Part shown: positions 42,261 to 58,159 of the stretch, in pieces | How the letters are laid out: the number at the start of each line of letters is the position of its first letter | How positions within the stretch are numbered: position 1 is the stretch's first letter | The notes under the pieces: generated by a model | Database searches by the model: none | Seen by the model: the letters and a program-made list of their open reading frames with translations, nothing else | What the model was told of the DNA's origin: nothing | Translations under genes and position numbers: made by a program | Assembly (NCBI RefSeq): GCF_016593255.1 | Contig: NZ_AP023212.1 | Coordinates: 856,001-920,000, forward strand | Direction: 5' to 3' | Source: Hydrogenimonas urashimensis | GTDB taxonomy: Bacteria; Campylobacterota; Campylobacteria; Campylobacterales; Hydrogenimonadaceae | DNA length: 64,000 nucleotides

Positions 42261-42337
42261 GGCTGGGTAGCTCAGCTGGTTAGAGCGCTGGTCTCATAAG
42301 CCGGAGGTCGGGAGTTCAAGTCTCCCCCCCGCCACCA
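42261..42337 (+). tRNA. tRNA-Met (CAT anticodon), island attachment site
   Basis: A 77-nt tRNA with D arm (GCTCAGCTGGTTAGAGC), anticodon loop CTCATAA, T arm GGGAG-TTCAAGT-CTCCC and encoded CCA (42335-42337). The acceptor stem has one mismatch (T4 against C69). Its 3' end from the T loop onward is the left copy of the 29-bp repeat that bounds the island. Confidence 0.93.
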
Positions 42338-42343
42338 TCTTCA
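42315..42343 (+). repeat. Left attachment repeat (tRNA side)
   Basis: A 29-bp sequence from the T loop of tRNA-Met to six bases past CCA, identical to 58131-58159. Confidence 0.92.
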
Positions 42344-42384
42344 AACCCCGAAATTTAGGGCTTTCCGAAGGTTCATCTCTCGGA

Positions 42385-42405
42385 TTGTACTAAAATTGTA
42401 CTAAA
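42385..42405 (+). promoter_or_regulatory. Candidate integrase arm-type sites, tRNA end
   Basis: Two direct copies of TTGTACTAAA at 42385-42394 and 42396-42405, 11 bp apart, just inside the left repeat and overlapping nothing coding. The same pair occurs at the other end. Confidence 0.6.
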
Positions 42406-42413
42406 TCACACTC

Positions 42414-43496
42414 TCAAATAGCTATGTTTTTTACGCGTGAAGTGTCAACCTTCACGCGGCCCATGTAGTGTTCGTATGTAATGTCGATCTTGCTGTGTCC
42501 GACCTGCTGGATGATCCAGCTTTCCGGCATGCCGCTTTGGGCCATAATCGTGATGAATGTATGGCGCATATCGTACATACGAAGCTCTTTGACGCCGGCG
42601 CGCTTCACGGCCGTCTTGAACTGCCTTCGGAGCGTTTCGCTCTCCTGGTAGGGCACGCCGTGTTGCGTCAGGAATACATCCTTCGCCAATCCGGTGTGCC
42701 GTCGCTGCCGCATCAGTGCCTCCTTGGCCTGCGGAAGCATATCGATCACCCGCTTCTTCTTGCTCTTCGTCACGTCGACCACCCCTTCGCGTCGCCGGCG
42801 CTGCACGATGATCGTCTCCGTCTCGAAGCTGATGTCGCTCCATCGAAGCGCGATCATCTCTCCCGGACGCATGCCGGTGAAGAACATGAGCTGAACGAAA
42901 TTCCTGAAAGGCTCTTCGCACGCCCGGATGATCTTCCTGACCTCCTCGATCGTGTAGGTCTCTATCTCCCGTTTCGGCTGCCTTGGCACTTCAACGAAAT
43001 CGAGTGGATTGCGATCGATGATGCCGTCCGCATACGCCATCTTGAATATCGAAGCCAGAACGGACCGGTAGTTCTTCACGGTCTTTGGCGTGACACGCTG
43101 CAGCATCCTGTTCTGCCATCGCAGAATGTCGCTCGCCTTGATATGCTCCACAAGCATGTCGCCGAACACCTCGTTCAGGCGTTCGAGCTTCTTCATCGAT
43201 TCGTCCTGGGAAAATCCGTTCCGACGGGAGGATGTGTTCTCGATGACCATCCGTCCGTAATCCTTGAATGTCGCGCCGGACCTCTCCCGATGCTTCTTCT
43301 CGTGCAGTTTGATAAATTCGCGCTCTTTGTTCTTTTCGAGCCACCGCCGGTTGACGGCGTTCGCCTCCTTTCCTGTGGCGTAGGTGTACTGTTTTTTGTC
43401 GATCGTCCCGCGCAGGGACAACTTGTTACCTCTTTGGACAACGGAAACCACGCATCTCCTTTCCAGTTGCCCGGCCAGCAATGCGTATTTTACCAT
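42414..43496 (-). CDS. int: Tyrosine recombinase (island integrase)
   Basis: A 360-residue phage-type integrase. An N-terminal arm-binding domain (about 1-70), a core-binding SAM-like domain (about 75-160) and the catalytic domain with R210 (TGMRPGEM), R311-H312 (DMRHT), H334 (VGHS) and Y344 (YEHYMG). ATG at 43496 is chosen because the longer frame runs into the dUTPase-like gene. It lies next to the tRNA and reads towards it, as usual for tRNA-integrated elements. Confidence 0.95.
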   Translation of the reverse strand: MVKYALLAGQLERRCVVSVVQRGNKLSLRGTIDKKQYTYATGKEANAVNRRWLEKNKEREFIKLHEKKHRERSGATFKDYGRMVIENTSSRRNGFSQDESMKKLERLNEVFGDMLVEHIKASDILRWQNRMLQRVTPKTVKNYRSVLASIFKMAYADGIIDRNPLDFVEVPRQPKREIETYTIEEVRKIIRACEEPFRNFVQLMFFTGMRPGEMIALRWSDISFETETIIVQRRRREGVVDVTKSKKKRVIDMLPQAKEALMRQRRHTGLAKDVFLTQHGVPYQESETLRRQFKTAVKRAGVKELRMYDMRHTFITIMAQSGMPESWIIQQVGHSKIDITYEHYMGRVKVDTSRVKNIAI

Positions 43497-43497
43497 G

Positions 43498-43824
43498 TCA
43501 CACCCCTGTCGACCCGAAACCGCCACGTCTTGCGGCATCGATCCGGTACGCCTCTTTCATGATTTCCCTGCCGAAATGCCGGTGAAGCAACAACTGCCCC
43601 ACAGCCATCCCCCTTTGGATTCTGAATGGCCCGTTTTCGCTTTCTGGAAGCTGCATGATCATTTTGATTTCGTCGTAGAAATCCATGTCTATTATGCCTG
43701 TCCCGTTTGGGATATACACGCCCCGCATCGCCACGGAGCTTCTTATGTAGAGCCCGAATTCGAGCGTATTGAGTATTTTTTTACGAAGGCCCTGTCTCGT
43801 AAAACTGATGAAGCGGCACCGCAT
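43498..43824 (-). CDS. dUTPase-like protein lacking motif I
   Basis: A 108-residue protein. dUTPase motif II is IRSSVAMRGV, motif III PNGTGIIDMDFYDE, motif IV RIQRGMAVGQLLL and motif V RGGFGSTG. Normal trimeric dUTPases are about 140-150 residues and start with motif I (AGYDL), which is absent in all upstream frames. The start is uncertain: ATG 43824 lies 44 bp inside the upstream gene. Phage dUTPases also act as derepressors of SaPI satellites; such a role is speculation here. It ends one base from the integrase start. Confidence 0.7.
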   Translation of the reverse strand: MRCRFISFTRQGLRKKILNTLEFGLYIRSSVAMRGVYIPNGTGIIDMDFYDEIKMIMQLPESENGPFRIQRGMAVGQLLLHRHFGREIMKEAYRIDAARRGGFGSTGV

Positions 43825-44008
43825 GGTCTATCACGTCAAGCCCCTCGGCGACACGCCTGTGTTTGGGCAGCAGGTCGCCAAGACGCACATAGCTCTTCCC
43901 GCCGCTGGTGATGATCTTGCCGCGGTAGGCCCGACATTTGCGTATCGCCCCTTTGTACAGTCTCGCCTCGAGTTCGCTCACCAGCACGCACTCACGCAGC
44001 ACTGTCAT
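43781..44008 (-). CDS. Small island protein, unknown
   Basis: A 75-residue basic protein starting at ATG 44008 with AAAGGGG upstream. It overlaps the end of the replication gene and the start of the dUTPase-like gene. Contains KIITSGGKSYVRLGDLLPK, a short beta-rich segment. No family recognised. Confidence 0.55.
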   Translation of the reverse strand: MTVLRECVLVSELEARLYKGAIRKCRAYRGKIITSGGKSYVRLGDLLPKHRRVAEGLDVIDHAVPLHQFYETGPS

Positions 44009-45053
44009 TGCCACCCCTTTCGTCGAGTTTTGAAAGAATGTACGTCGCGTACTCCCTCACCGTGCAATCCTCGTAAATAAACGGCCTGGAGCGGTTCACC
44101 GAATCCATCACCGCCAGCTCCTCCGCGCTGAAATACCGCGCCTGCGGCCGCTGGCTCGGCAGCACCTCCGCGTCCTCGTCCTCTCCCAGCTCCTCCAGCG
44201 CGCGCACCAGCCGCCCCACCAGGTCCGCGAACCGACGATCCGCCGGCTTGTGCCTGCGCACCAGCTCCGACGCCGAACGCACGCTCGCCGCCTCCGGGTC
44301 CCCGCCGATCCACTCCTCCCAGTCGTTCAGCCATGTCGCGGGGTGCGGAATGTAGGTCAAATCCCTCTCGGCGATCGCCTCGGCCACCCTCGGCGACTTC
44401 ACATAGTGCCCCACCGCCTTGAGCAGCTCCCTGATGCGTTTATGAAGTTTTTTCGATTTGAAGCGCTTGTAGGCCGTGTCCTTTCTGACCTTGCGCGGGT
44501 AGAGCTTCCAGAAGCGTGAAAACGCCTCCTCCACCTCGTCGGTTTTGGAGCCATTTTCACAAGAAGATGAGTCGTCCAAAGAGGTCCTTTTGGACCGATT
44601 TGGACAATATATATTATTTATTTTATATAATAGGTTGTGGTGGACATCTTTGTCCGCCTCAAAGAGGACATCTGTGTCCGCCTGGAGGACATCAGTGTCC
44701 CCATCGATGTAATCAGGAATGCTATATTTATCTGGCTTGAGATGCAATGCCATAACAGCTCTATCGGTAGGGTAATATGCAAAGGTACTACGAGAATGTT
44801 CAATTCGATGCATTGCCCCCGCATCGACGATTTTTTTGAGAGTTCTCCTGATATGTCTATCGCTATCATCAAGAGAAAGTGCCTCTTTGAGCATTTTCGG
44901 AGTAAGAATCATATACTGTTTGCCGTTCACCATAATAGTATCCTTGATTATTTTATCCGCGTCAATTGTCCACAATACTATCAGCGCCTCAGTCGTATTA
45001 AGCTGTGGAAACAGCTTCCTAAATGTTCTCAAAAACTGCCATATCATCTTCAT
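43992..45053 (-). CDS. Phage-type replication initiation protein with in-gene origin
   Basis: A 353-residue protein. Residues about 15-105 form a winged helix. Residues about 120-165 are a repetitive linker encoded by iterons. Residues about 178-255 hold the FWKLYPRKVRKDTAYKRFKS and YIPHPATWLNDWEEW signatures typical of phage replication proteins of the lambda O/DnaT-like kind. The C-terminal part is GC-rich, charged and coil-like. It should bind the iterons in its own gene and recruit a helicase. It lies upstream of and divergent from the repressor. Confidence 0.78.
   Translation of the reverse strand: MKMIWQFLRTFRKLFPQLNTTEALIVLWTIDADKIIKDTIMVNGKQYMILTPKMLKEALSLDDSDRHIRRTLKKIVDAGAMHRIEHSRSTFAYYPTDRAVMALHLKPDKYSIPDYIDGDTDVLQADTDVLFEADKDVHHNLLYKINNIYCPNRSKRTSLDDSSSCENGSKTDEVEEAFSRFWKLYPRKVRKDTAYKRFKSKKLHKRIRELLKAVGHYVKSPRVAEAIAERDLTYIPHPATWLNDWEEWIGGDPEAASVRSASELVRRHKPADRRFADLVGRLVRALEELGEDEDAEVLPSQRPQARYFSAEELAVMDSVNRSRPFIYEDCTVREYATYILSKLDERGGNDSAA
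44583..44700. repeat. Iterons and AT-rich stretch: candidate replication origin
   Basis: Three palindromic iterons GGACA-N4-TGTCC at 44642-44655, 44666-44679 and 44687-44700 (24 and 21 bp apart, so in frame), and a related palindrome GGTCC-TTTT-GGACC at 44583-44596. An almost pure A/T stretch (44606-44632) sits between them. The arrangement matches lambda-type origins located inside the O gene. Confidence 0.7.
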
Positions 45054-45103
45054 TTCTTCTCCAGCTTCAATATTTCGTTAACCGAATCTAATATCTGAAT
45101 TTT

Positions 45104-45250
45104 TTATCGCTTCAGTTCTCTTTTGAGCCCATAAGCCATCTCGTTTATTTTGGCAGTGCGGTACTCTTCTACGGCGTTTAATTTCCCTCTGGAGTGATGG
45201 GCGAAAACCGCCATCCAGATTGTAGTGGTCCGTAAATCTAAGGTATGCAT
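45104..45250 (-). CDS. Small island ORF, unknown
   Basis: A 48-residue reading frame (MHTLDLRTTTIWMAVFAHHS and a basic helical tail ending GLKRELKR). Its composition is more protein-like than the overlapping 71-codon frame. It lies 50 bp upstream of the replication gene on the same strand. The ribosome site is weak, so it is tentative. Confidence 0.35.
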   Translation of the reverse strand: MHTLDLRTTTIWMAVFAHHSRGKLNAVEEYRTAKINEMAYGLKRELKR

Positions 45251-45293
45251 TTCTCACATGACACCTTACGATTTTCTTCATTTCTACATTCAC

Positions 45294-45514
45294 GTATTAT
45301 TCCGATGCCTATCTTGATGAGCCGCTTAACTGCGCATGATCTATAATTTTACATCTCATAATTTTCTCTCCTTTTGCTATAATTTGTTAGCAAATATGTT
45401 TAACTTTTTTGTGTTTTTTACGATTTTTTGGTAAATAATTAGTTTACTATAGTCTTTTATAACAACATTATACAAATTTTTGTGGCTATTTTCAATCACA
45501 TAAAGGATTTTAAT
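45294..45514. promoter_or_regulatory. Divergent control region of the island
   Basis: An AT-rich region between the replication genes and the repressor. A perfect palindrome GTAAA-N7-TTTAC lies at 45431-45447, and GTTA-N11-TAAC lies nearby at about 45388-45406. TATAGT follows the palindrome. It is the likely repressor operator region. Confidence 0.55.
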
Positions 45515-46261
45515 ATGGATGATGTAGCAAGAAGACTTGATAAAGCAGTCGAATTAGGTGGTTTCAAAAGTCGTCGTCAAATGGCAGAAGTATTGGGTAT
45601 TTCGTATAATACTCTTAATACGTGGATTAAAAATGGTTCAATTAGCGAAAAAGGCGCAGTAAAAATTGCCTCGAAAATCCCGATTGCCCAGAATTACCTC
45701 CTTACCGGCGAAGGTATCCCCGAAAAACATATAGACATTCATGAACTATTCGGAAGAGAAAAAAAAGAATATAATAGTGTCTTTGCCGATGCCTGGGACC
45801 CCAAAATTTTAGATATGCTCAAAAAAGCACAAAAGAATGAAGAAATCAAGAGACAGGTCGCCATCCCCCGCCTCACCGCCAAAGCCTCCGCAAGAAGCGG
45901 CAACAACATAGAAAGCATCGACGTCTTTGAAACCGGAGAAGTTCTCTTTGTCGACCGATCCCTCTTTAAAACCCACCCAAAAAATGTTCGTGCCATCCAA
46001 GTTGACGGTTACAGTATGGTCCCCGTCCTACTTCCTGACTCCTGGGTCTTCTTCACCGAAACCTCGGAATGGACCGGCGACGCCCTCTACGTCCTGCTCT
46101 TTAGAAACATCCTCATGGTCAAACTCGTCGAAGCCGACCCCAAAACAGGAAACCTCTGGATCAAATCCGCCAACCCCGACTACGACAGCTGGCAATACGA
46201 CCCAACCCAGGACCAAAGCACCATCAAAATCATAGGCCGCGTCATCCGCTGCATGGTGTGA
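45515..46261 (+). CDS. CI-like phage repressor with S24 peptidase domain
   Basis: A 248-residue repressor. Residues about 15-65 are a helix-turn-helix (SRRQMAEVLGISYNTLNTWI), residues about 140-248 an S24/LexA-like domain with Ser167 (DGYSMVPVL) and Lys203 (ILMVKLVE) as the catalytic pair. No clear Ala-Gly cleavage site was seen. ATG 45515 has AAAGGA upstream. It should keep the island silent until a helper or damage signal. A second copy of its last 16 codons occurs at 48318-48379. Confidence 0.85.
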   Translation: MDDVARRLDKAVELGGFKSRRQMAEVLGISYNTLNTWIKNGSISEKGAVKIASKIPIAQNYLLTGEGIPEKHIDIHELFGREKKEYNSVFADAWDPKILDMLKKAQKNEEIKRQVAIPRLTAKASARSGNNIESIDVFETGEVLFVDRSLFKTHPKNVRAIQVDGYSMVPVLLPDSWVFFTETSEWTGDALYVLLFRNILMVKLVEADPKTGNLWIKSANPDYDSWQYDPTQDQSTIKIIGRVIRCMV

Positions 46262-46273
46262 TTGGTAAAAAGG
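46218..46273 (+). repeat. Repressor-tail repeat, copy 1
   Basis: The end of the repressor gene and its downstream leader. It repeats at 48336-48390 with a 21-bp identical core (46232-46252 and 48350-48370) and a similar AAAAAGGA site. Confidence 0.75.
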
Positions 46274-46279
46274 AATAAC

Positions 46280-46606
46280 ATGTGCACTTCATCCTATGTG
46301 CTTGCAGCATTTCTGATCTATCTGTTTGTGAAATACATTGCACTCAAAGATGCATTCGGTCATGCACTGATCGATCTTGACGAAGCATATGAAAAACTTG
46401 GGACAGATCAGTTTGAAACCGGAGTGACAGATATAGGAGGATGGAAAGCACGATTGTTCAGACGATCCTCCAAGAGAAGGAAAGAGTACCTCGTGAATTA
46501 TCTTGCAGAAAAGAGTGAAGCGAGAAAAAGGCTTGGAAAACCGCCCATCGATCCAGCCATGATCAAAGGCCTTGAAATCGATGTCTTACGCATATTCAAA
46601 TCTTGA
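46280..46606 (+). CDS. Small membrane-anchored island protein, unknown
   Basis: A 108-residue protein starting at ATG 46280 with AAAGGA upstream. A TM helix spans about residues 5-25, followed by a charged helical domain. No family recognised. First gene of the cargo module after the repressor. Confidence 0.6.
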   Translation: MCTSSYVLAAFLIYLFVKYIALKDAFGHALIDLDEAYEKLGTDQFETGVTDIGGWKARLFRRSSKRRKEYLVNYLAEKSEARKRLGKPPIDPAMIKGLEIDVLRIFKS

Positions 46607-46658
46607 ATGAGCAGCAATAAACCATGAGAAAGATAAACACAACGATGGAGGAGCCCGT

Positions 46659-47282
46659 ATGCCTTGCCATGCACTGATCCAGAACACAGATATAGCAAAT
46701 ATCTATCATATAAAGCAGATTAAACGTGTTTCGCTGAAATGCGAATGCAAAGACGACGACGTCAAAGAGTGCTTTATCACCCCTGAGGCCAAAAATTCCC
46801 CCGCTTTGGTCTGCCAACCTATTCAACGTACATACTACCGACACAAGCCCCTTCGCGGCATGAAAGGTACCGGGAAAGTCGTCAAGCACGAACTATTTTA
46901 CATGTGCCCGTTCTACAGAAAAAAAGGCATCGCATCCGCATTGGCAGACAATGAAATGACGATCTACAGAAGAAATAATTTCGACGAGATTCAGCTGGAT
47001 GCCGCCGCGGACGGCGTAGTGGTTTGGCAGCGTCTTGGGTTCGAATACCAAAGGAAAAGCGATGAGCGGATGCTCTTGTTGGCATGGAAGCGCTACTTCA
47101 TGGAGATTTACAATGAAGGCAATATTTCCAATGAAGTTAAAGCGGATATAATATCGAAAATCAGACATTTCCACGATGTCAAATCAAAGCATATGAAGCA
47201 AAGCAACGGTCCATCATTCAGTGATTGGCTTCGGGGGAGCCCAAAGACGCAGATGCTTCCAATGTACAAGAGAGTGGCATAA
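46659..47282 (+). CDS. GNAT-like acetyltransferase
   Basis: A 207-residue protein. The core segment FYRKKGIASALADNEMTIY is an acetyl-CoA loop (R/Q-x-x-G-x-A), and VVWQRLGFEYQRK matches the C-terminal GNAT strand. The ends are unrelated to known domains. GGAGGAG precedes the ATG. It overlaps the next gene by one base (TAATG), so the two are translationally coupled, as in two-component toxin or defence pairs, though that role is only a guess. Confidence 0.6.
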   Translation: MPCHALIQNTDIANIYHIKQIKRVSLKCECKDDDVKECFITPEAKNSPALVCQPIQRTYYRHKPLRGMKGTGKVVKHELFYMCPFYRKKGIASALADNEMTIYRRNNFDEIQLDAAADGVVVWQRLGFEYQRKSDERMLLLAWKRYFMEIYNEGNISNEVKADIISKIRHFHDVKSKHMKQSNGPSFSDWLRGSPKTQMLPMYKRVA

Positions 47283-48313
47283 TGAACGAGCGCAAACGTT
47301 ACGATTTTAGGATGTATCTTGGAAACGGAGAATCCAAGATACTCTTTTTCCGTGCCCTTGTCGTCAATGAAGAGAACTATTATTTCATCGAGGTGCCCCA
47401 TTTTGGCATAGATGAAGGTGCCAAAGAGATTTTCGAAGGTATTCTGCACGGTACGCTGGAAATCGAATATTTCGATACGGAAGAATATAAAAATCCAGAA
47501 ATCGCGCCAGAAATTCACGTCTGGAGGCCTCATGGAGAGACTGCTATCGAAAGGCTTGAAAGCGCCGTTGATGCACCACTCTCAGACGTATTGCCGGAAA
47601 TGTCAATTGATCAAATAGAACTCGTGGAAGCTTTTTCTTTCCGGTTCGACGGTCATGATCTCAATCTTGCATATGGGCTCAGTCCCAAAAGCGCGGGGAA
47701 CGTCTTTACCCTTTCTAACCAATATGCCACAACGATATCATCATGCAACAATGGAAGTTTCGGTGAGACTCTGCAAGTCGAACCCATCGCCGCAAGCACA
47801 AAAGTGCCCTATCTTGCAGAAAAGATCGATGAAACCGCGATTGCCACGATCGAAAAGGCGATCCGTGACGTCAAAGACGGCACCATAGACAGGACATACG
47901 CTTCGCAGAACGATGCCTATGCCAGGCTTTACAAAAAGTTCCTCAAAGAGTTGAAATATCTCAGAACCATTACAGACATCCGCAAGTTCGAGTTTTCGTC
48001 TCAGAACGTTTCGATTGGCATCGATGATTTTTCCGTACTCAATGATATCGATATGCAGCTCTACAACGAAACGGTACAGGGTTCCGGCACGGTGCATCAT
48101 CATGAGCGATTTTTGAAGAGTAGGCCCAATATTTATGTGGTCGTACTGGATGAAAACGATCACGAAACGAGGCTTCATCTCGACAGTCAGCGGGACAATT
48201 TCAAACAGATGCTCCGCATTCTCAAAGAAAATGACGAAAAACGTATCCGGTACGAAGGTATTCAGGTAAGTGAAACCGTTGTAGAGGCAACACATGTATA
48301 TGCCGACGCATAG
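47282..48313 (+). CDS. Unknown cargo protein coupled to the GNAT-like gene
   Basis: A 343-residue soluble protein. The N-terminal half is rich in beta structure (YDFRMYLGNGESKILFFRAL; EENYYFIEVPHFGID), the C-terminal half is mixed and contains RRNIYVVVLDEN-like strands. No TM or catalytic motif recognised. The 1-bp overlap with the GNAT-like gene argues for a joint function. Confidence 0.6.
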   Translation: MNERKRYDFRMYLGNGESKILFFRALVVNEENYYFIEVPHFGIDEGAKEIFEGILHGTLEIEYFDTEEYKNPEIAPEIHVWRPHGETAIERLESAVDAPLSDVLPEMSIDQIELVEAFSFRFDGHDLNLAYGLSPKSAGNVFTLSNQYATTISSCNNGSFGETLQVEPIAASTKVPYLAEKIDETAIATIEKAIRDVKDGTIDRTYASQNDAYARLYKKFLKELKYLRTITDIRKFEFSSQNVSIGIDDFSVLNDIDMQLYNETVQGSGTVHHHERFLKSRPNIYVVVLDENDHETRLHLDSQRDNFKQMLRILKENDEKRIRYEGIQVSETVVEATHVYADA

Positions 48314-48317
48314 CATG

Positions 48318-48379
48318 AGAACACCGCCGACGACTCCACCATGAAAATAATAGGCCGCGTCATCCGCTGCGTCGTATGA
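48318..48379 (+). pseudogene. Remnant of a second CI-like repressor 3' end
   Basis: About 20 codons (ENTADDSTMKIIGRVIRCVV) match the C-terminus of the intact repressor (QDQSTIKIIGRVIRCMV). The rest is missing. Confidence 0.75.
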
Positions 48380-48397
48380 TTGTAAAAAGGAGCACCC

Positions 48398-48772
48398 ATG
48401 AAGCGCATCATAGCAGGAACCCTCATCGCCGCCGCATTTGCTTTCGCGGAACATCGTCCAACACAATGTCAGATATGGCTAATGCTAACAAAGGGCGAAA
48501 AGCTTGCTATGCTTTGGGGAATGGAGTTTGCCTATTTCGACTCACATAATGAAGTTATCGTGGACACTATTGCTTACAGTACATACAACATCGAAGGAAT
48601 CGATAAAGTCTGCAAAGACCCAGACAATAAATATGTTCAAATCGTCGATGCCGCTGCACTTGCTCATTATAGATCAATAGGAAGCGTTATTAGGAAAAAT
48701 GATCTGGAAGAGATAAGGAGAAGAGGTTATAAGTTATACCGACGATGGTATAATTCGAATCCGAAAAAGTGA
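48398..48772 (+). CDS. Small secreted island protein, unknown
   Basis: A 124-residue protein with a signal peptide (residues 1-18, MKRIIAGTLIAAAFAFA). The mature part has two Cys residues and no known domain. AAAAAGGAG precedes ATG 48398, in the same relation to the repeat as the 46280 gene. Confidence 0.55.
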   Translation: MKRIIAGTLIAAAFAFAEHRPTQCQIWLMLTKGEKLAMLWGMEFAYFDSHNEVIVDTIAYSTYNIEGIDKVCKDPDNKYVQIVDAAALAHYRSIGSVIRKNDLEEIRRRGYKLYRRWYNSNPKK

Positions 48773-49567
48773 GAAATTTTTCACAAAATTTTTCGCACCC
48801 CACAAACCGGGAAAACGAAAATTTCCACACACTCCTACATCTGTGGAACGCGGCTTTTTTTAAAAAAGGCCCGGGTGGGGGACGCACCCCCCTCCAAAAT
48901 GAAAAACCGTTTTCCGATGAATACCTACGCGCCCGCCTGGGCAGATTGCCGGAAACGTTTCAAGCCGTCTCCAGAGCGCCTCGATGGAGATTTTCCGCTT
49001 AAGGTTTCTTTTTTCAGAAGGTTTGAAAATCATAATTTTCAATACTTTTTAGGGCGCTTTTCATCACTTTCGCCGCGCCATGCAGAGCCATTCAGCGCCA
49101 CAACCTTAAACACGCCTATTTTTCCCCGATCCTCTTAAGATTTCCCCAGACAATGCCCCTTTTCATATTGTATTCTTACGCTTTGAAATTAGTTTGCCGT
49201 TTTCAGTGAAAACAGGCTTAAATCACCGCCATCGAGACTCGCTATCGTCCGTTGCATCGCTCTTTTCAGCGGATCGCCCCCGTTTTGGCCTCGCCGGTCG
49301 CCCGCTCCCTGCGCCAACCCAAACCATAGCACCCGATCACCGGACGCGTCCAAATTTTTCAAATTCCAAAGCCGCCCTCCCCTTTACGTATCATTTTCGC
49401 CCGAAAATCTGCCGAGTTTACCGCTTTTTCGCTTTCTATAGACCTCCTCTTTTTGTTTGAATTGTCTCTCTTGCCGATTCGATGGAGCGTAAATTCATTT
49501 TGACTATTTTCAGCGCAAAAGCGGCGCGGCTGTGTTATAGTGTGTCATCTTGTTTAAAAGGTGCGCA
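48773..49567. other. 795-bp noncoding stretch in the island
   Basis: No convincing gene. It holds a near-palindrome GGCTTTTTTT-AAAAAAGGCC (48852-48871), a GGGTG/CACCC hairpin at 48873-48889 and several polypyrimidine runs. A packaging site or an unrecognised RNA is possible, but there is no direct evidence. Confidence 0.4.
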
Positions 49568-49855
49568 ATGAAAATGAAATTTCTCGCAAAAGCGGCGGCG
49601 GTTCTTTTGGTAACGGTTTCTTTGTTCGGCGGTTCTCTTTTTGACAACCCATACGACGGCGAAAAGAAGAGTGAATACAAGTACGAAGGTTCAAGCGGCG
49701 CGCATTACAAATATGACCTTAGTGACCCCTCCGACCGTATCGAGTACAGCACGGATCTCGACGCCCAGATGAATGACAAAATGAGCGTTAGCCCCAATCG
49801 GGATCTCGATCGGCAGATGGGGCAGTTCGGCGGCGGTATCGACCCGAACGATTAG
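49568..49855 (+). CDS. Small secreted protein, unknown
   Basis: A 95-residue protein with a signal peptide (about 1-22) and an acidic, Tyr- and Asp-rich mature part (NPYDGEKKSEYKYEGSSG). It converges on terS with a 4-bp stop overlap. No family recognised. Confidence 0.55.
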   Translation: MKMKFLAKAAAVLLVTVSLFGGSLFDNPYDGEKKSEYKYEGSSGAHYKYDLSDPSDRIEYSTDLDAQMNDKMSVSPNRDLDRQMGQFGGGIDPND

Positions 49856-50493
49856 TCGTCATCGCCGGCAATAGCGGCGTCGCGCTGCTGTTTTTCGAGC
49901 ATCCGGCGCAGCTCCTCGTCGCTCATCTTGCTGTAATCCTCGACCTTGTTGGTATTGTTGTTGACGACCACCACATCCGGACTTTTCCCGAAGACTTGCT
50001 GCTTGGCCATCGCCACGATCTCGTTGTAGGTCTTGATCTCCCGCATGTCCACACTGGCCGGCGACGATCGCATCAGCTTCTTCATATGCTGAAGCTTGTC
50101 GTGCGCCATCATCACCCCCTCGAACGCCAGGGCGTCGAACTTCTCGATGCTCAGTGCGCCCATGATGATCGCCTCGGCCCTTCGGTCCGCGATCAGGTCG
50201 TGCGTCTGCAGCTCGATCAGGTCGCGCGGCTTCCCCGTCTTCTCCTCCAGCTCGTCGACGATCTTCTTCTTCGCCTCCTGGAAAATGTCGGTGCTCTCCA
50301 TCCGCTCCTTAAGGATTTCGGCCGCTTTCTTGACCTCTTCCTTCAGCGCGCCCTTCATCCAGTTCTCCCGCTTGCGCCACTCCCCCAGCGTCGCCTTGGG
50401 CACGCCAAGATGCTCGCCGATCTTGCTCAACGGCCAGCCGTACACCTCGTAATAGTCCCGTGCCCTGGCCCGTATCTCCGCGCTGTACGCCAT
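49852..50493 (-). CDS. terS: Phage terminase small subunit-like protein
   Basis: A 213-residue protein. An N-terminal helix-turn-helix (about 8-45: WPLSKIGEHLGVPKATLGEW, then RKRENW) is typical of TerS/DUF1804 proteins. A long helical middle and an acidic tail (DEELRRMLEKQQRDAAIAGD) follow. TerS recognises the packaging site and partners with TerL; no TerL is present. In PICIs an island TerS redirects a helper phage's packaging. AAGGAG precedes ATG 50493. Confidence 0.72.
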   Translation of the reverse strand: MAYSAEIRARARDYYEVYGWPLSKIGEHLGVPKATLGEWRKRENWMKGALKEEVKKAAEILKERMESTDIFQEAKKKIVDELEEKTGKPRDLIELQTHDLIADRRAEAIIMGALSIEKFDALAFEGVMMAHDKLQHMKKLMRSSPASVDMREIKTYNEIVAMAKQQVFGKSPDVVVVNNNTNKVEDYSKMSDEELRRMLEKQQRDAAIAGDDD

Positions 50494-50495
50494 GC

Positions 50496-50524
50496 TTGCA
50501 TCTCCTTCGCTCTTATGTTATTAT
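50496..50524 (+). promoter_or_regulatory. Promoter of ncRNA A
   Basis: TTGCAT (50496-50501), a 17-bp spacer, TATTAT (50519-50524). It overlaps the divergent terS ribosome-binding site, so transcription could affect terS expression. Confidence 0.5.
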
Positions 50525-50530
50525 TTTCGC

Positions 50531-50689
50531 GTGCCAGTGGGTCGCATGCCGTGGGTAGGCCAGGGCCAAACACACTCCCGGCGGCGCTCAGCCTTCCGCC
50601 CGTAGGATTAACGCCGGGACGGCGGGGCGGCGGTACCCCCACGTCTTACGACGACTCCGGGCCGGTAGGCGGGTAAGCCGGCCTGGCAC
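50531..50689 (+). ncRNA. Structured RNA candidate A
   Basis: About 159 nt closed by a GTGCCAG/CTGGCAC stem that begins seven bases after the -10 box. Inside are a TCCCGGCG/CGCCGGGA stem (near 50576-50614), GGCCGG/CCGGCC and a CGTC-TTAC-GACG hairpin. No open frame with a start site fits. The opposite strand also folds, so the strand is inferred from the promoter. Confidence 0.5.
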
Positions 50690-50705
50690 ATCCTTCTGTA
50701 AAGTT

Positions 50706-50734
50706 TTGACATCTCTTCACATTTTCGATAAAAT
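50706..50734 (+). promoter_or_regulatory. Promoter of ncRNA B
   Basis: TTGACA (50706-50711), 17-bp spacer, TAAAAT (50729-50734). Consensus quality. Confidence 0.8.
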
Positions 50735-50741
50735 TTCAACA

Positions 50742-50820
50742 GCAGGCCGCCTCGCGGCCAGGATTTATCCTGCGTTGGTTACTACCTCCTGATCTTCAGG
50801 GGCGCTAGGGGGCGGCCTGC
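50742..50820 (+). ncRNA. Structured RNA candidate B
   Basis: About 79 nt beginning eight bases after the -10 box. P1 is a perfect 10-bp stem of 50742-50751 with 50811-50820. P2 is CAGGA-TTTA-TCCTG (50759-50772). A conserved GCGTTGGTTACTACC follows, then P3, CCTGA-TCT-TCAGG (50788-50800). It is a homologue of candidate C. Confidence 0.75.
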
Positions 50821-50854
50821 AAAAACCTCGCGCTACACGATCTCATCCACACAT

Positions 50855-50883
50855 TTGACATCTTTTCCTATTTGCGATAATAT
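50855..50883 (+). promoter_or_regulatory. Promoter of ncRNA C
   Basis: TTGACA (50855-50860), 17-bp spacer, TAATAT (50878-50883). The spacing to the RNA is the same as for B. Confidence 0.8.
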
Positions 50884-50890
50884 TTCAGAA

Positions 50891-50968
50891 GCAGGTCGCC
50901 CTTCGGTCAGGATTTATCCTGCGCTGGTTAGCACCTTCCGCAAACGGAAGCGCTGCGGGGCGGCCCGC
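50891..50968 (+). ncRNA. Structured RNA candidate C
   Basis: About 78 nt. P1 pairs 50891-50901 with 50958-50968 (one mismatch, one G-U). P2 is identical to B. The GCGCTGGTTAGCACC core is conserved with B, and P3 has changed sequence but kept pairing (CTTCCG-CAAA-CGGAAG, 50935-50950). The 3' strand can instead form GCGGG-GCGG-CCCGC followed by TTTCTTCT, a terminator, which would compete with P1. Confidence 0.75.
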
Positions 50969-50974
50969 TTTCTT

Positions 50975-51235
50975 CTACTGCTTCATATACAGCAAATTCG
51001 CATCCGGAACTTTCAACAACTCTTTAATCTTCGAAAGATTTTCAATCTCGAAAAACGTTTTGTGCACCAATTCTCCATCTTTGTCCAAAATGAAGCTGGC
51101 GAGATGGTAGTGGCCATTTTCATCTTTGAACGGCTTGTAATAGACATGCTGCCACTCCCCTTTGTACCGCTTTTTCACGACGAATAGAGGATCTTTGAGG
51201 GTCTCGACAAAAGCACCTACAAGATGCTTTGTCAT
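50975..51235 (-). CDS. Small BECR-nuclease-like protein
   Basis: An 86-residue protein resembling the PBECR nuclease domain (Barnase-EndoU-ColicinE5/D-RelE fold) usually found at the end of phage head morphogenesis proteins. Visible segments are HLVGAFVETLKDPLFVVKK, VYYKPFKDENGHYH and KELLKVPDANLLY. It may be a freestanding toxin or a phage-gene fragment. Its stop lies at the end of ncRNA C, on the opposite strand. Confidence 0.5.
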   Translation of the reverse strand: MTKHLVGAFVETLKDPLFVVKKRYKGEWQHVYYKPFKDENGHYHLASFILDKDGELVHKTFFEIENLSKIKELLKVPDANLLYMKQ

Positions 51236-51277
51236 CCATATGAGTATTGTCTGCGCCTATTCAACCTATAAGCGCAA

Positions 51278-51540
51278 TCAATCCACCATTTTATCCAATT
51301 CCTTCACAAGCTTTTGGAAAAAGACTTCATGGGGTGTTTTGTAACCCAATACTTTTCTTGGCCTGTGATTGAGTCTGTTTTGAATCTTCGTGGTCTCTTT
51401 GACGCTGATATATTCGAGTTCACTCTCTTTGAAAATAGCCCATATGCGTACCCCAGATTTTTTAAAGTATGAATCATGACAAATTCCTCTTTGCTTATCA
51501 TTGCCTCTCCGGATAGGATTTTCATCGGGGTTTAGCAACT
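51278..51540 (-). pseudogene. Transposase remnants (IS30-type C-terminus, IS21-like N-terminus)
   Basis: The 3' part (about 51284-51420) encodes SVKETTKIQNRLNHRPRKVL and GYKTPHEVFF, a typical IS30 transposase C-terminus. The 5' part, in another frame, encodes MISKEEFVMIHTLKNLGY, similar to IS21-family N-termini. Both are short and broken. Confidence 0.7.
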
Positions 51541-51855
51541 TCTTTCTCTATCTCGGTGGTACATTTTAGCGCGTTGTTTAACAGTGAGCAAAATTTGTAA
51601 AAAATTGTCCATAAAAATAAACGTACTTAATATAAATTCAATATTGAGAAGTCCAGTACTCTAAAATTCTATTTTATGCCGTACTGAGATTTTATTATAT
51701 TGATATCAACATATTTGGCTCCCTATAATTATATTATGGCACTTGAGAATATCTAGCCTGGAAGGTTCCAAAAACTCATGCACAGACACTTCCCTCTTCG
51801 CATCCATGGATAGGCTTTAACAAAAACTATATATAATTATTTAAAAAGGCTTGTT
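51541..51855. other. AT-rich intergenic stretch
   Basis: About 315 bp, strongly AT-rich. No gene or repeat was seen beyond scattered A/T tracts. Confidence 0.4.
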
Positions 51856-52503
51856 GTGTCCAATAAAACGTTTAGAAGTAAATGCCAAAAGTGTGGAAAA
51901 GCCATAAATATGGTCGAGACAGATGAAGGATGGAAAGCTTTTGAAATAGGGACTTATGGTTTACATTTTTGCAGTAAACGAGATAACTGGTCACTTTCTT
52001 CTCTTGGACATAGGCTCACATGCACCATCCGATGCTGGTGGTGTAGGGAAACAGTTTATTTTCATACAAATGGAAATGGTGATGCTGTTTTGTTCGAAAA
52101 ACTGGGTGCCCCATGGGAAATCCACCCATGTTGGGAGAAGCACAAACATTCCAGATCTGCAAAGATTAAAGAGTTAGAATCAATACTTAAGCAGGCAGGG
52201 TATGATGGAAGATCTAAACAATTCAATCTTCTCAAGCGGCGAAAACATGATCCATATATTAAAATGATTTTACAATCAAAAGATATGAGGGTACTGGATA
52301 ATTATTTAATTGATTTTTGCAAATGTCTGGTAAGCAATGATATTTCATTCAAAGGACCTATACCTATGAATGTTAAAATTAATAATGGTGTCAAGATATA
52401 TAAACGAATCATAAAAATATTGACGGCCAGTGCAATCAAAGATATTGATTGTTTTAAAGAAATGATTCCACCTTCTATCAATATTAAATTAAAAATAATT
52501 TAA
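51856..52503 (+). CDS. Zinc-ribbon-like protein, unknown
   Basis: A 215-residue protein from GTG 51856 (AAGG upstream). An N-terminal CQKC pair and a middle segment CTIRCWWCRETVYFHTNG, later LGAPWEIHPCW, form zinc-ribbon-like and treble-clef-like sites. The C-terminal half is basic and helical. AT-rich codon use sets it apart from the backbone, suggesting separate acquisition. Confidence 0.6.
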   Translation: MSNKTFRSKCQKCGKAINMVETDEGWKAFEIGTYGLHFCSKRDNWSLSSLGHRLTCTIRCWWCRETVYFHTNGNGDAVLFEKLGAPWEIHPCWEKHKHSRSAKIKELESILKQAGYDGRSKQFNLLKRRKHDPYIKMILQSKDMRVLDNYLIDFCKCLVSNDISFKGPIPMNVKINNGVKIYKRIIKILTASAIKDIDCFKEMIPPSINIKLKII

Positions 52504-52744
52504 TAAAATGTATCAATAAGTGATAATCATTCGTAAAAATCCGACTCCATTCTCGAAGAAAGTAGAATATATAAAAAGTTGTCTATCATTGGAGATTGTC
52601 TATCCTTTATTTGTCAAGATAAATTTATCGACCATCATCTTTAAGTTACTCAGATCGCCTACTTCATAGAGGATCAGTGTAGATTTATTAATTATTTCCT
52701 TCTTATTGTTTATTAAAGTGTTACCAAATTCTTTCCTTTAATGG

Positions 52745-55243
52745 TCATATATTTCCTTCATAGTCATCTGAACTGATAACAGTATCATATAGTCCGACCT
52801 CTTCCCCTATATGCTTATTAATACCGACATATTCAAGACTTGCATCTTCATATCGTTTAAATTTGTAAACCGCATCGTTCATAAGGGCACTGTTAAAGAC
52901 ATCAAGACTGACCAAAAGCTCAAAGTCCTCTACTGTTAGACCTGTAACCTTTTTGAATAGACCAGGTTCAAGCTGCGTGATAACATCTTTCAGACTCTTC
53001 TCGCGATAATCTGTCAAATACATAAATACTGGTATTCGTGTTGCAAATTTGATGAGCTTTTCCTGAATCTTTTTACGGAGGCTTTTATACTCTTTCTCTT
53101 CTTTACTAAGTTCTTTTTTCTCTTCCTTGGTCAGATCTCTATCATTAGCTTCTTTTTTGGCTTTCTTGACTGCTTCAGACTTGTTAATGATCGTTTCTAT
53201 GTCCTGATTGAGAGAGCGAAACCCTTCGATGCTCATGAGCGCGTTCATCGCTTTTTCGTTATCCATGAGTCTTTGTAGTGTTGCGTTGTCTACATTGACC
53301 AGCAGAGCACTTTCCCATCGTCTCGCAAGCAGTGTCGCTGTCGTTCCACTCAATGCCATGTCGAGAACACCGGCAGCGTCTATGCGCTTCATTGAGCTTC
53401 CGTCATAGGCGAGAATCGGAAGGAAGTGAATGAATTCGGCTACTTTCTTTTCAGGATCAGGTTCTTCCACATTCAGCCTTGAACTATATTCGGCAATTTG
53501 ACTCAGTGCTCTGTTCGGCGCGAAGTCAAAAACATAACACTCTTCTTTGATGATCTCTTCTTTGTTGGGGGACTTTCCATCCGGGTTCTTAACTGTCCAT
53601 GGAGTTTGTACCCTGAACGCTGCCTGAAAATAGGTCTCCGGACTACTGAGGTTTCGCAGCATAAAGATCCCGGACCAGGGCTTTACGGAAACACCTGTTG
53701 TGAGTTTCCCGCATGAGAGGGTGATGGTTTTGGTTTTAAGGGGATCTCCCATCGCTTTGAGTACCGGTTCCAGAGCCTTGACACCTATTCCAGCCTTTGG
53801 ACCTGCAGCCACTACAATGTTGTAGTCGTGATAAAACCTGTTTTGTCTCTTCATCATCAGGTTTCTCATAGCATACGCCGATGCTACGGACGGCAGGAAC
53901 CAGAAGGTATGGGTCAGGATGTGAAGCAGTCTGGTATCTGAAAAGGGAAGCGCCGGTTTTTTGGCACCGAGTTTGAGATTGTCTGTACTTGTCGGCAGAT
54001 AGGCACCACGGATCAGGTCAAGCCATTTCTGCACATACTCTTCATAGACAAACTTGGCATCATCGCCTTCACCTTTGGCAGAGAAAAAGAGGTTGAGGTC
54101 AAATTCGTTAAACTCTCCGCCCATAGCGATAGAACGGATCGATTCCGGCATCTGGTAGGTCAGCATGACCATACGCGGCAAAGAGGCATAAGGATTGTTA
54201 TCACCTTTCCACTCTTCTTTGGCTCTTTGTTCATCGGAGTATGTCCAGTTGAATATCTGCTCTTCTATGAACTCACCAGTGCTGATGGCGCGAAACGGAG
54301 TACCCGAGAGATATAGATAGTGATTTGTAGTGATAGGCATAATATCTTCAATATCGTCATCGTTTTTATCGAGAATATCAACCGCTTCACCCTGTGCCGC
54401 TTTCTGCTCTTTGGCATCTTCTGCCTCAAAAAGCTCTTTGGCACTCTCTCGCCATGCCCCGTAATGATACTCATCGAAGACTACACAGTCCCAGTTGGTA
54501 GCGTGTACCCACTCATTTTTCGCCTTGATACCGCCGGCAGAGTTTTTGCCGAGGTAATCCTGAAATGAACCGAAGCATACGAAAGGCTTACTCTCATCGA
54601 CGCTCTCCTCCTTCAGACGCTCCGGAGAGTAAAACTCCCACCCTTCAAAGTCAACATGACTCTCAAGATCCTCTTTCCATGCGCTTTGTACCGCAGGCTT
54701 GAAGGTAAGCACAAGTATTTTTCTCCACCCCATCTTCTTCGCCAGCTGATAGGTCGCAAAGGTCTTACCGAAACGCATTTTTGCATTCCACAGAAAGTGA
54801 GGTGTCTTACCCGGATTCTCCGCTTTGAAGCTCTCGAAATAGCGAATCGTCTTATCCACCGCTTCAGCCTGCTCCGGACGCATCTTGAATGTCAAGGTAC
54901 GGTTTTCCACATTCTCTTCACCGTTTTTGATGGCATGTATAGCCGCTTGGATTTCTCTTTTGCCGCATCTGAACCACTCCCCGTCAGGGTTGGCGATCCC
55001 TCTGGCACGCAAATAGCGATGGACATCATGGTCAGTGAAAGTGCTGCCGTCATTTCGCATGGCGGACTCTTCGAGGATGATCTCATAGCGCAGTCCCGCC
55101 GTACCGACCTGCTCTTTAATCCGCTGGCGTACATCTCTGGTGGTGTAACCTACTTTTACAAGACCTTCTCTGTCTGAGGCATTTAAGATCTTGTAAGCAT
55201 AGATTGTGGGATGTAGATCAGGGCGTTGTGGGAAAAAGTCCAT
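52745..55243 (-). CDS. GIY-YIG nuclease/SF2 helicase fusion restriction protein
   Basis: An 832-residue protein. Residues about 13-45 hold a T5orf172/MUG113-type GIY-YIG motif (TIYAYKIL, LVKVGYTTRDVRQRI). A DEAD-like helicase follows with NAKMRFGKTFA (K160), VVFDEYHYG near 250, YLSGTPFRA (motif III) and FQAAFRVQTPW (motif VI). It lies four bases after the methylase stop and is read with it. It is the likely cleavage and translocation subunit of a restriction system. Confidence 0.78.
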   Translation of the reverse strand: MDFFPQRPDLHPTIYAYKILNASDREGLVKVGYTTRDVRQRIKEQVGTAGLRYEIILEESAMRNDGSTFTDHDVHRYLRARGIANPDGEWFRCGKREIQAAIHAIKNGEENVENRTLTFKMRPEQAEAVDKTIRYFESFKAENPGKTPHFLWNAKMRFGKTFATYQLAKKMGWRKILVLTFKPAVQSAWKEDLESHVDFEGWEFYSPERLKEESVDESKPFVCFGSFQDYLGKNSAGGIKAKNEWVHATNWDCVVFDEYHYGAWRESAKELFEAEDAKEQKAAQGEAVDILDKNDDDIEDIMPITTNHYLYLSGTPFRAISTGEFIEEQIFNWTYSDEQRAKEEWKGDNNPYASLPRMVMLTYQMPESIRSIAMGGEFNEFDLNLFFSAKGEGDDAKFVYEEYVQKWLDLIRGAYLPTSTDNLKLGAKKPALPFSDTRLLHILTHTFWFLPSVASAYAMRNLMMKRQNRFYHDYNIVVAAGPKAGIGVKALEPVLKAMGDPLKTKTITLSCGKLTTGVSVKPWSGIFMLRNLSSPETYFQAAFRVQTPWTVKNPDGKSPNKEEIIKEECYVFDFAPNRALSQIAEYSSRLNVEEPDPEKKVAEFIHFLPILAYDGSSMKRIDAAGVLDMALSGTTATLLARRWESALLVNVDNATLQRLMDNEKAMNALMSIEGFRSLNQDIETIINKSEAVKKAKKEANDRDLTKEEKKELSKEEKEYKSLRKKIQEKLIKFATRIPVFMYLTDYREKSLKDVITQLEPGLFKKVTGLTVEDFELLVSLDVFNSALMNDAVYKFKRYEDASLEYVGINKHIGEEVGLYDTVISSDDYEGNI

Positions 55244-55247
55244 ATCA

Positions 55248-56747
55248 TTACTCCATCGGACGAATCATGGATTCAATAAAAGCAATTTCATCCTCACTCA
55301 AACCATATTTACTGTAAAGTTTTTCATCTGTCCACTCTTGAGTAAAATCCTGTTTCGGTGCAAATTGATAAACTTTAGAAGTTGCATGTTGTGTTGGTTT
55401 ATTAAGCAGTACCATAAATCTCAAAAATTTTGTTTTTAGATAATTTTTAAGATTTTCTGCCTCCTGTGCATTATCATATGCTCCTGCAATGAGATAGGTT
55501 TCTGTGCAGGCGCTATTGGGCTCAGCAACAAATGGTTGCCCTAAAATTGGATGAGGAAAAGAATCACTACCGCTACCAAGTGGAGGAATCATTACTTTAT
55601 AAAGAGGTACATACTCAAGTCCCTTGCTTATCTTCTCTATACCGATATACCCTATGCCACCATTCTGATAGATCTTAATACAATCCTTAAATGGCTTTGT
55701 TTCCCCCTTAAAAGTAGTATCAAGACCAAATGGTTTTCTTGAACTGATTTGAGACATCAAGGACGGTTCTTTTTTCTCTCGAACCTTTTTTAAGATAGGG
55801 ATTGCTTCATTGTACCGGATAAATGTATCAGCTCCATCTTCAAGTAGCGGTCGCTCCATAACAGAAGGAGTATTATCTTTGGAGTATGAAAACACTTTAC
55901 AAAGACCTGGTTCATCCCGCTTCCAGAGAAAATAACAAACACCACCTTTAATCTGCACGCCAGGGAAAACATGAGTTGCATCAGGAAAATCATGGATCTC
56001 ACGAATGCGATTGTCTGTGAGCATCTCTTCACGAAAACTGTCCAAACCCTTTCCGCCTGAAAACCATCGTGCAGGTATAATCATTGTCAGATATCGAGGT
56101 TTTAATTTTTTGGCTTGTTGAACAAATTTATGATAGATTGGTTTGGCACTTGTTCCGTAACCACTATCACTTAGCTGATAAGGAGGGTTTCCTACAATAA
56201 CATCAAATTTCATATTAAATATCTCCTCTGGATTATCTGTGTGTATAAACTGATAAGCATGGGTCTCAAGAATGTCGTCCCGATCATACACCTCTTGACT
56301 GGCACCGCAGTATTTGCACTTTCCGTTTACCCATGTATGCTCAATGCGCTTAAAGATAATATTTCCCTGCTCATTGGTAAATGTTTCACAAAAAGAGTAC
56401 TTGCCGTTGGCAATTTTCGAACCGTATACACTCCGGCGTGAGAGCAGAGATGTAAGCTCTGTTATAGCTATTCCAAAGAGCTGTTTTTCGAAAATATGGT
56501 TGATGCGCTCTTGCTTGTCAGGTATGATTTCTTCGAGACCTTTTACAAGCCGCTTTGCGATTTCTCTTAAAAATACACCGGATTTGCTGAAAGGGTCAAG
56601 GAAGGTCGCATCGGGGTTTTGCCACAACTTCTCCGGCAGCAGGTCAAGCATATCGTTGGCAAGTTCCGGCGGCGTAAATACCTCGTCACTGCTGAGGTTT
56701 GCCAGCATGTTGAGTACATCAGGGTTGTAATTTATTTTATTATCCAT
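55248..56747 (-). CDS. Eco57I-like N6-adenine DNA methylase with target recognition region
   Basis: A 499-residue protein. The AdoMet region is [20 protein letters not shown], the catalytic motif GNPPY is at 186-190, and CKYCG (144-148) may bind zinc. The C-terminal half (about 330-490) resembles a target recognition domain. It overlaps the upstream small methylase by 8 bp. Confidence 0.8.
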
Positions 56748-57390
56748 GTTCTGCCAGCCTTAAAAAATGGGTTACGGGGTACTCCTTCACCGGGTCGGGA
56801 ATAAATGCTTCCTCCCCCAGGTCCGAAAAAAGGCCGGCATCACTGCCAAACTGGGTGTTGTGCAGTATCTCGAAGCTGTAGTCTCTGCGCTTGATCATCA
56901 CACTGTTAACGGGGGACCATTCGGAGAAAATGATAGGTTCACCTTTCCTGTCTGTCCTCTTAAAGGTAAGGGCATCGCCCTGGATGATGTTGCGATCTAA
57001 AATATATCTCACACTTTGACGGCATGCTTCCTGACAACGCTCTTTGAAGAGTTTGGTATATTGCGCATCAAACAGATCATAGAGCCGACAGCGACACTCT
57101 TCGACATTATCTTCCAGCAGATCGATACCGTAAATGCTTGAGACGGCAATCACCGCATTTCGTTCATAGTCCAGCTGGTTCTTCTTGTAGCGACTCTTCA
57201 CCACTTCCAGTTTCCTGCGTAAAACCTCCAGCAAAAAGTTCCCGGTACCGCATGCCGGTTCCAAGAAGCGAGATTCTATCCGCTCCGTTTCATGTTTGAC
57301 TAGATTAAGCATCGCATTTACTTCTCGTTCCGCAGTGAATACCTCACCATGGTCTGCTACCCGAGTTTTACATTTTACTTGTTTATGCAT
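56740..57390 (-). CDS. Small N6 methylase-like protein
   Basis: A 216-residue protein with motif [12 protein letters not shown] (43-53) and [15 protein letters not shown], typical of N6 DNA methylases, but no NPPY is visible. It may supply AdoMet binding or act with the larger methylase as a split enzyme. First gene of the three-gene cassette. Confidence 0.72.
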
Positions 57391-57739
57391 TTAACTTATC
57401 CTATTGCTACAAATACGATTAGCTTAATTATTTTTTTCTCTTTATTGTATCGTTACACAAATGCTAAAAATATGATAACTCATCCTCCCCATTCGTCTTC
57501 TTTCTAGAATTATAATTCGATTATATATCATATTTTGAATTTTTTGCCTAAAACCTTGGCCAAAAACTAACTGTCCACAGTGTTGATAGATCGTTTTATC
57601 TTTGACAGTAATGCTCCCCATTCTTTACCGCATCCAAAAGTAAAACCAGGCCGCCAAGCAACCTTTTACCTTGGCACAATGTCGTTTCTATATGGGCCTT
57701 TTTGACCTCGTGCCCGCCATCTTTACTGTTATGCCTCAA
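57391..57739. other. AT-rich leader of the restriction cassette
   Basis: About 350 bp upstream of the cassette, AT-rich around 57420-57560 and likely to hold its promoter. No complete gene. Confidence 0.4.
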
Positions 57740-57861
57740 TTCCAGCTGATCATCGATAGATGTACACCGATTCGTTCGGCAATCTCTTTTTGGAACATAC
57801 CGCTCTTGCGCAAAACTGAAATATGATATCGTTTCTGCAGGGTTAATTAATGATAGCTCAT
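57740..57861 (-). pseudogene. IS30-type transposase N-terminal remnant
   Basis: Starting at ATG 57861 the frame reads MSYH, a stop, LTLQKRYHISVLRKSGMFQK and EIAERIGVHLSMIS, then shifts to ELRHNSKDGGHEVKKAH. This is the N-terminal HTH of an IS30 transposase with a nonsense codon and frameshift. The C-terminal part of an IS30 transposase is found 6.3 kb away in the same orientation. Confidence 0.72.
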
Positions 57862-57865
57862 GCAA

Positions 57866-58130
57866 CTTTCCTTCTGTTTTTGGTCGAACAAGGATAACTG
57901 AGCCCCTGATAACCGTCTCTTACGACCTTATGAAAAATTGTGTTTATCTTTTGAATAAGCTTTTAAAAAAATGCTCCGAAAGTGCCCTGGAAACCAGGAT
58001 GCAAAAAGAGGAAATAACGCAGTTTGTTTTGTACTAAATTTGTACTAAAAATCACCCGAAAATCGCTGACCGGACAACTCTTCTTTTACCGAAAACAGGG
58101 AAACCGCCGCAATCACGGCATCAAAAAAAC
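57866..58130. other. Right end of the island
   Basis: About 265 bp with no gene. It contains the second pair of TTGTACTAAA sites. Confidence 0.5.
58029..58049 (+). promoter_or_regulatory. Candidate integrase arm-type sites, distal end
   Basis: TTGTACTAAA at 58029-58038 and 58040-58049, again 11 bp apart and in the same orientation as the pair at 42385-42405. Confidence 0.6.
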
Positions 58131-58159
58131 TTCAAGTCTCCCCCCCGCCACCATCTTCA
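58131..58159 (+). repeat. Right attachment repeat
   Basis: 29 bp identical to the 3' end of tRNA-Met at 42315-42343, without the rest of the tRNA. Confidence 0.92.

Follow-up and report, generated by a model that had tools for sequence, protein, structure and literature searches.

Where does an integrated element that carries its own initiator gene begin its replication? Origins located inside initiator genes have long been known in phage lambda and the lambdoid phages, and embedded origins also occur in P22, phi80, SPP1 and some lactococcal phages. The question is raised here by an integrative element of 15.8 kb in Hydrogenimonas urashimensis, contained in the stretch of 64,000 nucleotides that we analysed (contig NZ_AP023212.1, positions 856,001 to 920,000; hereafter the window, with coordinates counted from its first letter). 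We consider it highly probable that positions 44574-44700 constitute the origin of this element, situated inside the element's own initiator gene (rep) and lambda-like in its working.

The element is delimited by two copies of a perfect direct repeat, the first of which overlaps the 3' end of a tRNA-Met gene (42261-42337). Its principal features are the following:

42315..42343, element end 1 (att), 29-bp perfect direct repeat
42414..43538, minus strand, tyrosine integrase (Phage_integrase, 4.1e-26)
43498..43824, minus strand, short dUTPase-like protein, downstream of rep (PF00692, 2.8e-5, above the cut-off)
43992..45053, minus strand, initiator (Rep) gene, 353 aa, containing the candidate origin (phrog_270 match)
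45373..45394, perfect 22-bp palindrome TTTGCTA-N8-TAGCAAA, candidate CI operator, unlike the iterons
45467..45495, minus strand, promoter-like TTGAAA-17-TATAAT directed toward rep and the origin (a consensus match only, 11/12)
45482..46261, plus strand, CI-like repressor with HTH and S24 peptidase domains, divergent from rep (Phage_CI_repr, 2.7e-9; Peptidase_S24, 3.9e-12)
50738-50826 and 50887-50974, plus strand, twin structured RNAs, 84% identical (folding, covariation)
52745-57390, minus strand, type IIG-like restriction-modification system, three genes
58131..58159, element end 2 (att), second copy of the 29-bp perfect direct repeat, 15,816 bp away from the first

The restriction-modification genes encode a protein with T5orf172 and ResIII domains, an Eco57I-type methylase and part of an MmeI-like methylase. 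An HTH protein (49852-50493) has weak matches to terminases (phrog_5751, 3e-5; phrog_2606, 1e-3), the match to DUF1804 being below the cut-off. One copy of a 52-bp direct repeat (87%) lies at the 3' end of cI (46219-46270) and the other 2.1 kb further on (48337-48388), suggesting that the end of a repressor gene was duplicated or recombined. In a congeneric genome, an unrelated element of 8.9 kb (L048; G397:C1:694500-705500), bounded by 50-bp repeats and devoid of a related rep, occupies the same tRNA-Met gene, which therefore is an integration hotspot.

Rep matches the phrog_270 family, annotated as 'replication initiation protein' (E=1.2e-16; aa 64-253 aligned to positions 80-254 of 383), and its C-terminal domain also matches several other phage initiator families. 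By contrast, neither PF04492 (Phage_rep_O) nor phrog_277, both of which are matched by lambda O, was matched by Rep, which at the level of sequence falls outside the lambda O family. Given that the sequence families are unmatched and the anatomy is alike, we describe Rep as lambda-O-like in its working rather than as a member of that family. An AlphaFold2 model built from an 8-sequence alignment (mean pLDDT 62) predicts a winged-helix domain with the secondary structure H-H-E-E-H-H-E-E, a disordered linker and a helical C-terminal domain containing the motif FxRFWxxYPRK...PHPATWLND, a region common to phage initiators. Foldseek matched the N-terminal part weakly to winged-helix proteins, among them ArsR, TubR and RTP, in no case with an E-value below 0.001, and sequence searches yielded no relatives of solved structure. 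No close full-length homologue of Rep was found in 397 sampled genomes of the phylum, in 18 genomes of the genus or family, or in viral or genome contigs, the searches returning relatives of the C-terminal domain only. All parts of the candidate origin are located within the codons of the linker (about aa 118-160), as can be seen from the layout of the gene, given here in the 5' to 3' direction of rep for the protein domains and then for the DNA features:

44760..45050, minus strand, predicted N-terminal winged-helix DNA-binding domain, aa 2-98 (AlphaFold2, pLDDT about 62-86)
44550..44759, minus strand, disordered linker, aa 99-168 (AlphaFold2, pLDDT about 30-40)
44304..44552, minus strand, helical C-terminal domain, aa 168-250, proposed to recruit the helicase (pLDDT 75-93)
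44687..44700, iteron 1 in gene order, GGACATCAGTGTCC (plus strand), exact match
44666..44679, iteron 2 in gene order, GGACATCTGTGTCC (plus strand), exact match
44642..44655, iteron 3 in gene order, GGACATCTTTGTCC (plus strand), exact match
44606..44632, A/T-only tract of 27 bp, proposed DNA unwinding element (stability, permutations)
44574..44605, palindrome of 32 bp with arms of 7 + 5 bp and a 4-nt loop, abutting the A/T tract

Three GGACA-N4-TGTCC iterons, spaced by 24 and 21 bp, had been proposed from the letters of the sequence, and indeed all three are exact, with identical arms and varying N4 spacers and flanks. The array begins at nt 354 of the gene, and no other exact match to the motif exists in the 2,297,889-bp genome. 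Similarly, in a search of the window for inverted repeats (arm 5, gap 0-12, three copies within 120 bp), the rep iterons were the sole triple with identical arms. The protein repeat that the same reading had connected with the iteron spacing is present in the translation as DTDV/DTDV/DKDV.

The A/T-only stretch proposed within the coding sequence likewise is present, 9 bp from the last iteron on the gene-3' side. By nearest-neighbour energies, no 27-mer in the window is less stable, and the tract is the second-longest A/T run there. It is followed by the palindrome, GTCCAAAGAGGTCC-TTTT-GGACCGATTTGGAC, which starts 36 bp past the last iteron, pairs at 12/14 positions and folds at about -10 kcal/mol (z -5.6), so that the order along rep is iterons, A/T tract, palindrome. 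The sequence-only reading had included a related palindrome in an origin spanning 44583-44700; the palindrome exists, but begins 9 bp outside that interval. A known RNA structure at this site was considered and rejected, there being no Rfam match at the palindrome (the tRNA is the sole Rfam match), which also is absent from the list produced by the terminator scan.

Because the candidate origin is embedded in a coding sequence, its features could conceivably be by-products of the protein, with the DTDV repeat representing an in-frame tandem duplication in a disordered linker and serving no function at the DNA level. Disordered linkers tolerate repeats, and spacings of 24 and 21 bp preserve the reading frame. 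We permuted synonymous codons within rep, keeping the protein and the codon usage, and in 20,000 permutations the three iterons were never rebuilt (0/20,000; two sites in 51), the pairing of the palindrome was reached in 2/20,000 and an A/T run of at least 27 in 2/20,000, counts that are not free of selection since the exact motif and the palindrome were picked after seeing the sequence. Statistics blind to the pattern gave 0/300 for inverted repeats in rep and p = 0.013 for three-copy direct repeats, a value in favour of a protein repeat and no lower since the signal derives in part from DTDV. The iterons, the A/T tract and the palindrome are three independent DNA features that the protein does not explain. 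Furthermore, a duplication acting on the protein would not account for arms that are identical in three copies alongside variable spacers and flanks, nor for the A/T tract and the palindrome, and the arrays of many related genes have spacings of 22 or 23 bp that break the frame. So do those of lambda: when gene O was run through the same tools as rep, its four annotated iterons were recovered at spacings of 20, 24 and 23 bp. The spacing by multiples of three in rep is hence incidental, and the earlier suggestion that the frame is kept 'as in lambda O' has to be dropped, together with frame-keeping as a sign of likeness to lambda. With the synonymous permutations counting against it, we reject a protein-only repeat and regard it as hardly credible.

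A function in regulation rather than replication is somewhat less far-fetched but still very improbable. Dyad-symmetric sites are typical of operators and the gene of a CI-like repressor adjoins rep, so that the iterons might serve the CI-like protein or a roadblock through which Rep represses its own gene. However, they are 350 bp into the gene, far from the promoter-like site; the cI-rep intergenic region contains no copy of the iteron with up to two mismatches and is occupied instead by a different perfect palindrome, TTTGCTA-N8-TAGCAAA, on which grounds we discarded the iterons as CI operators. An operator also would leave the A/T tract, the hairpin and their lambda-type order unaccounted for. 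The remaining alternative, an origin that once worked and is now unused in a decayed remnant, is a variant of the main explanation and compatible with it, and we judge it unlikely, albeit far less so than an operator. The short dUTPase and the lack of recognizable structural genes among the element proteins scanned are in line with decay, but the integrase, rep and repressor genes retain intact reading frames and the two att repeats match perfectly. The proposal that the replication gene houses an origin agrees with every lambda-type prediction that could be tested at the level of sequence.

A lambda-type mechanism of replication is very likely. The N-terminal winged helix of Rep would bind each GGACA-N4-TGTCC iteron, probably as a dimer given that each iteron is a dyad, and the three occupied sites, spaced by about two helical turns, would wrap or bend the DNA. 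Binding of Rep to the iterons would then lead to melting of the adjoining 27-bp A/T tract, whereupon the helical C-terminal domain may recruit the replicative helicase; no helicase or helicase loader of the P/DnaC type was recognized among the element proteins scanned. Opening would be bounded, as in lambda, by the palindrome past the A/T tract. Transcription starting at the upstream promoter, presumably controlled by CI, would cross the origin and may aid its opening, and the origin would be expected to act after excision of the element.

To gain insight into the spread of this arrangement, we surveyed phrog_270 genes from sampled genomes of the same phylum, which formed 51 clusters at 50% identity, lambda excluded. 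Repeat arrays beyond the synonymous null (p <= 0.01) were detected in 19/51 clusters, with about 60% of the surveyed relatives showing no significant array. In all 19, the array starts between aa 93 and 155, spacings of 21-24 bp being frequent. A/T content over the 60 bp located 3' of the arrays exceeds that of the genes as a whole (0.683 vs 0.624; Wilcoxon p = 0.0008), and no A/T enrichment was found in the 60 bp on the 5' side. Clear dyads are seen in some relatives, for instance, five copies of GTTCA-N5-TGAAC (L012) and four of GTCA-N3-TGAC (L016). A second set, recovered by way of the C-terminal domain of Rep from viral contigs plus one genome contig, comprises 11 clusters, of which 7 have arrays, each located N-terminal to that domain. 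Among control ORFs, 6/135 passed the array test, which amounts to about 3% of real controls because two of the six are initiators that the filter had missed. Thus, iteron-like arrays in linker codons recur in relatives of Rep.

Like Rep, the phrog_270 initiators combine a winged helix, a linker and a C-terminal part, although only a few of them have the C-terminal domain of Rep in common, and iteron sequence and number vary from one initiator to the next. Coevolution of the winged helix with its target would be expected to produce such differences. To judge from the survey, linker codons commonly house iterons even in initiators remote from lambda O, the DNA-binding domain and its binding sites travelling together in a single gene, which would explain how replication modules exchange hosts and specificities. 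As a separate observation made by eye, a second, shorter set of direct repeats (AACCRTCA, AGAGACTACA, AGTAAGACTGA, AATTACAAGC) occupies the A/T-rich DNA on the 3' side of the iterons in the rep genes L010, L012, L016, L025, L031, L066, L070, L071 and L074; these repeats resemble those of unwinding regions.

What kind of element would use such an origin? Its gene content fits a satellite or PICI-like plan, with an integrase, a regulator, a rep-ori module and att repeats but without structural genes, no capsid, portal, TerL or tail match having been obtained among the element proteins scanned. A phage-satellite reading of 42315-58159 is plausible. The same genome contains a full prophage (985.0-1024.8 kb; L152/L153) with genes for capsid/head, portal, large terminase, tape measure and integrase, the initiator of which (L007) has its own iteron array, different from that of rep. 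It is possible, but on balance doubtful, that the element is an undescribed satellite of this bacterial group with an embedded origin, a repressor, a TerS-like gene, a type IIG system and an RNA pair, perhaps packaged by this prophage 100 kb away. Were that so, the iteron linker would act as a specificity cassette, general and quick to change, by which the two replicons avoid sharing origins.

The twin RNAs are unrelated to the candidate origin. Each is located just 3' of a promoter with TTGACA-like and GATAAA- or GATAAT-like elements (50705.., 50854..), and both fold into the same three-way junction (z -3.45 and -3.62), in which both copies retain 30/30 pairs, helix 3 having undergone 4 two-sided compensatory changes. 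They are not in Rfam, and no further copy was found in the 397 genomes of the phylum.

The locus thus offers a candidate origin that is exact to the base and directly testable, and the open-access literature that we searched contains none for this bacterial group. It also provides a rule for finding origins in uncharacterized prophages, namely, to look for repeats unexplained by the protein between the winged helix and the C-terminal domain of the initiator.

Comparison with known systems shows the element to be lambda-like in its layout. As with the candidate in rep, the origin lies in the middle of the initiator gene in lambda gene O and in lambdoid Stx phages (PMC7466680, PMC5043065), and the lambda iterons are bound by O dimers, after which the neighbouring A/T-rich region opens (PMC5043065, PMC7466680). 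In both cases, dyad iterons 20-24 bp apart are repeated within the initiator gene, beginning at nt 349 in O; an A/T-rich tract adjoins them on the gene-3' side; and a palindrome stands past that tract, which in lambda has 12-nt arms and a 4-nt loop and starts 43 bp beyond the last iteron (L037, 1163-1190). A CI-type repressor is encoded upstream of the initiator in each. The differences are equally definite: three iterons with 5-bp arms and an N4 spacer here versus four 18-bp sites of unrelated sequence in lambda, an initiator outside PF04492 and phrog_277 with a YPRK-type C-terminal domain, the lack of a recognized P-like loader among the element proteins scanned, and an integrase downstream of rep on the same strand. 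A putative lambda-like origin has been predicted, and only predicted, in gene fhv_0043 of the Francisella prophage KIRK, where repeats in the replication gene also are accompanied by a repeated amino-acid motif (KDNNK x3), albeit with other repeats and in another host (PMC7924643). The iteron plasmids RK2, P1 and F resemble rep in having an iteron array beside an A/T-rich opening region (PMC5043065), but their iterons are direct repeats bound by monomers, whereas the sites in rep are dyads, as in lambda. Embedded origins as such are already known, and the value of the present one is its exact target and the recurrence of its arrangement across distant initiators.
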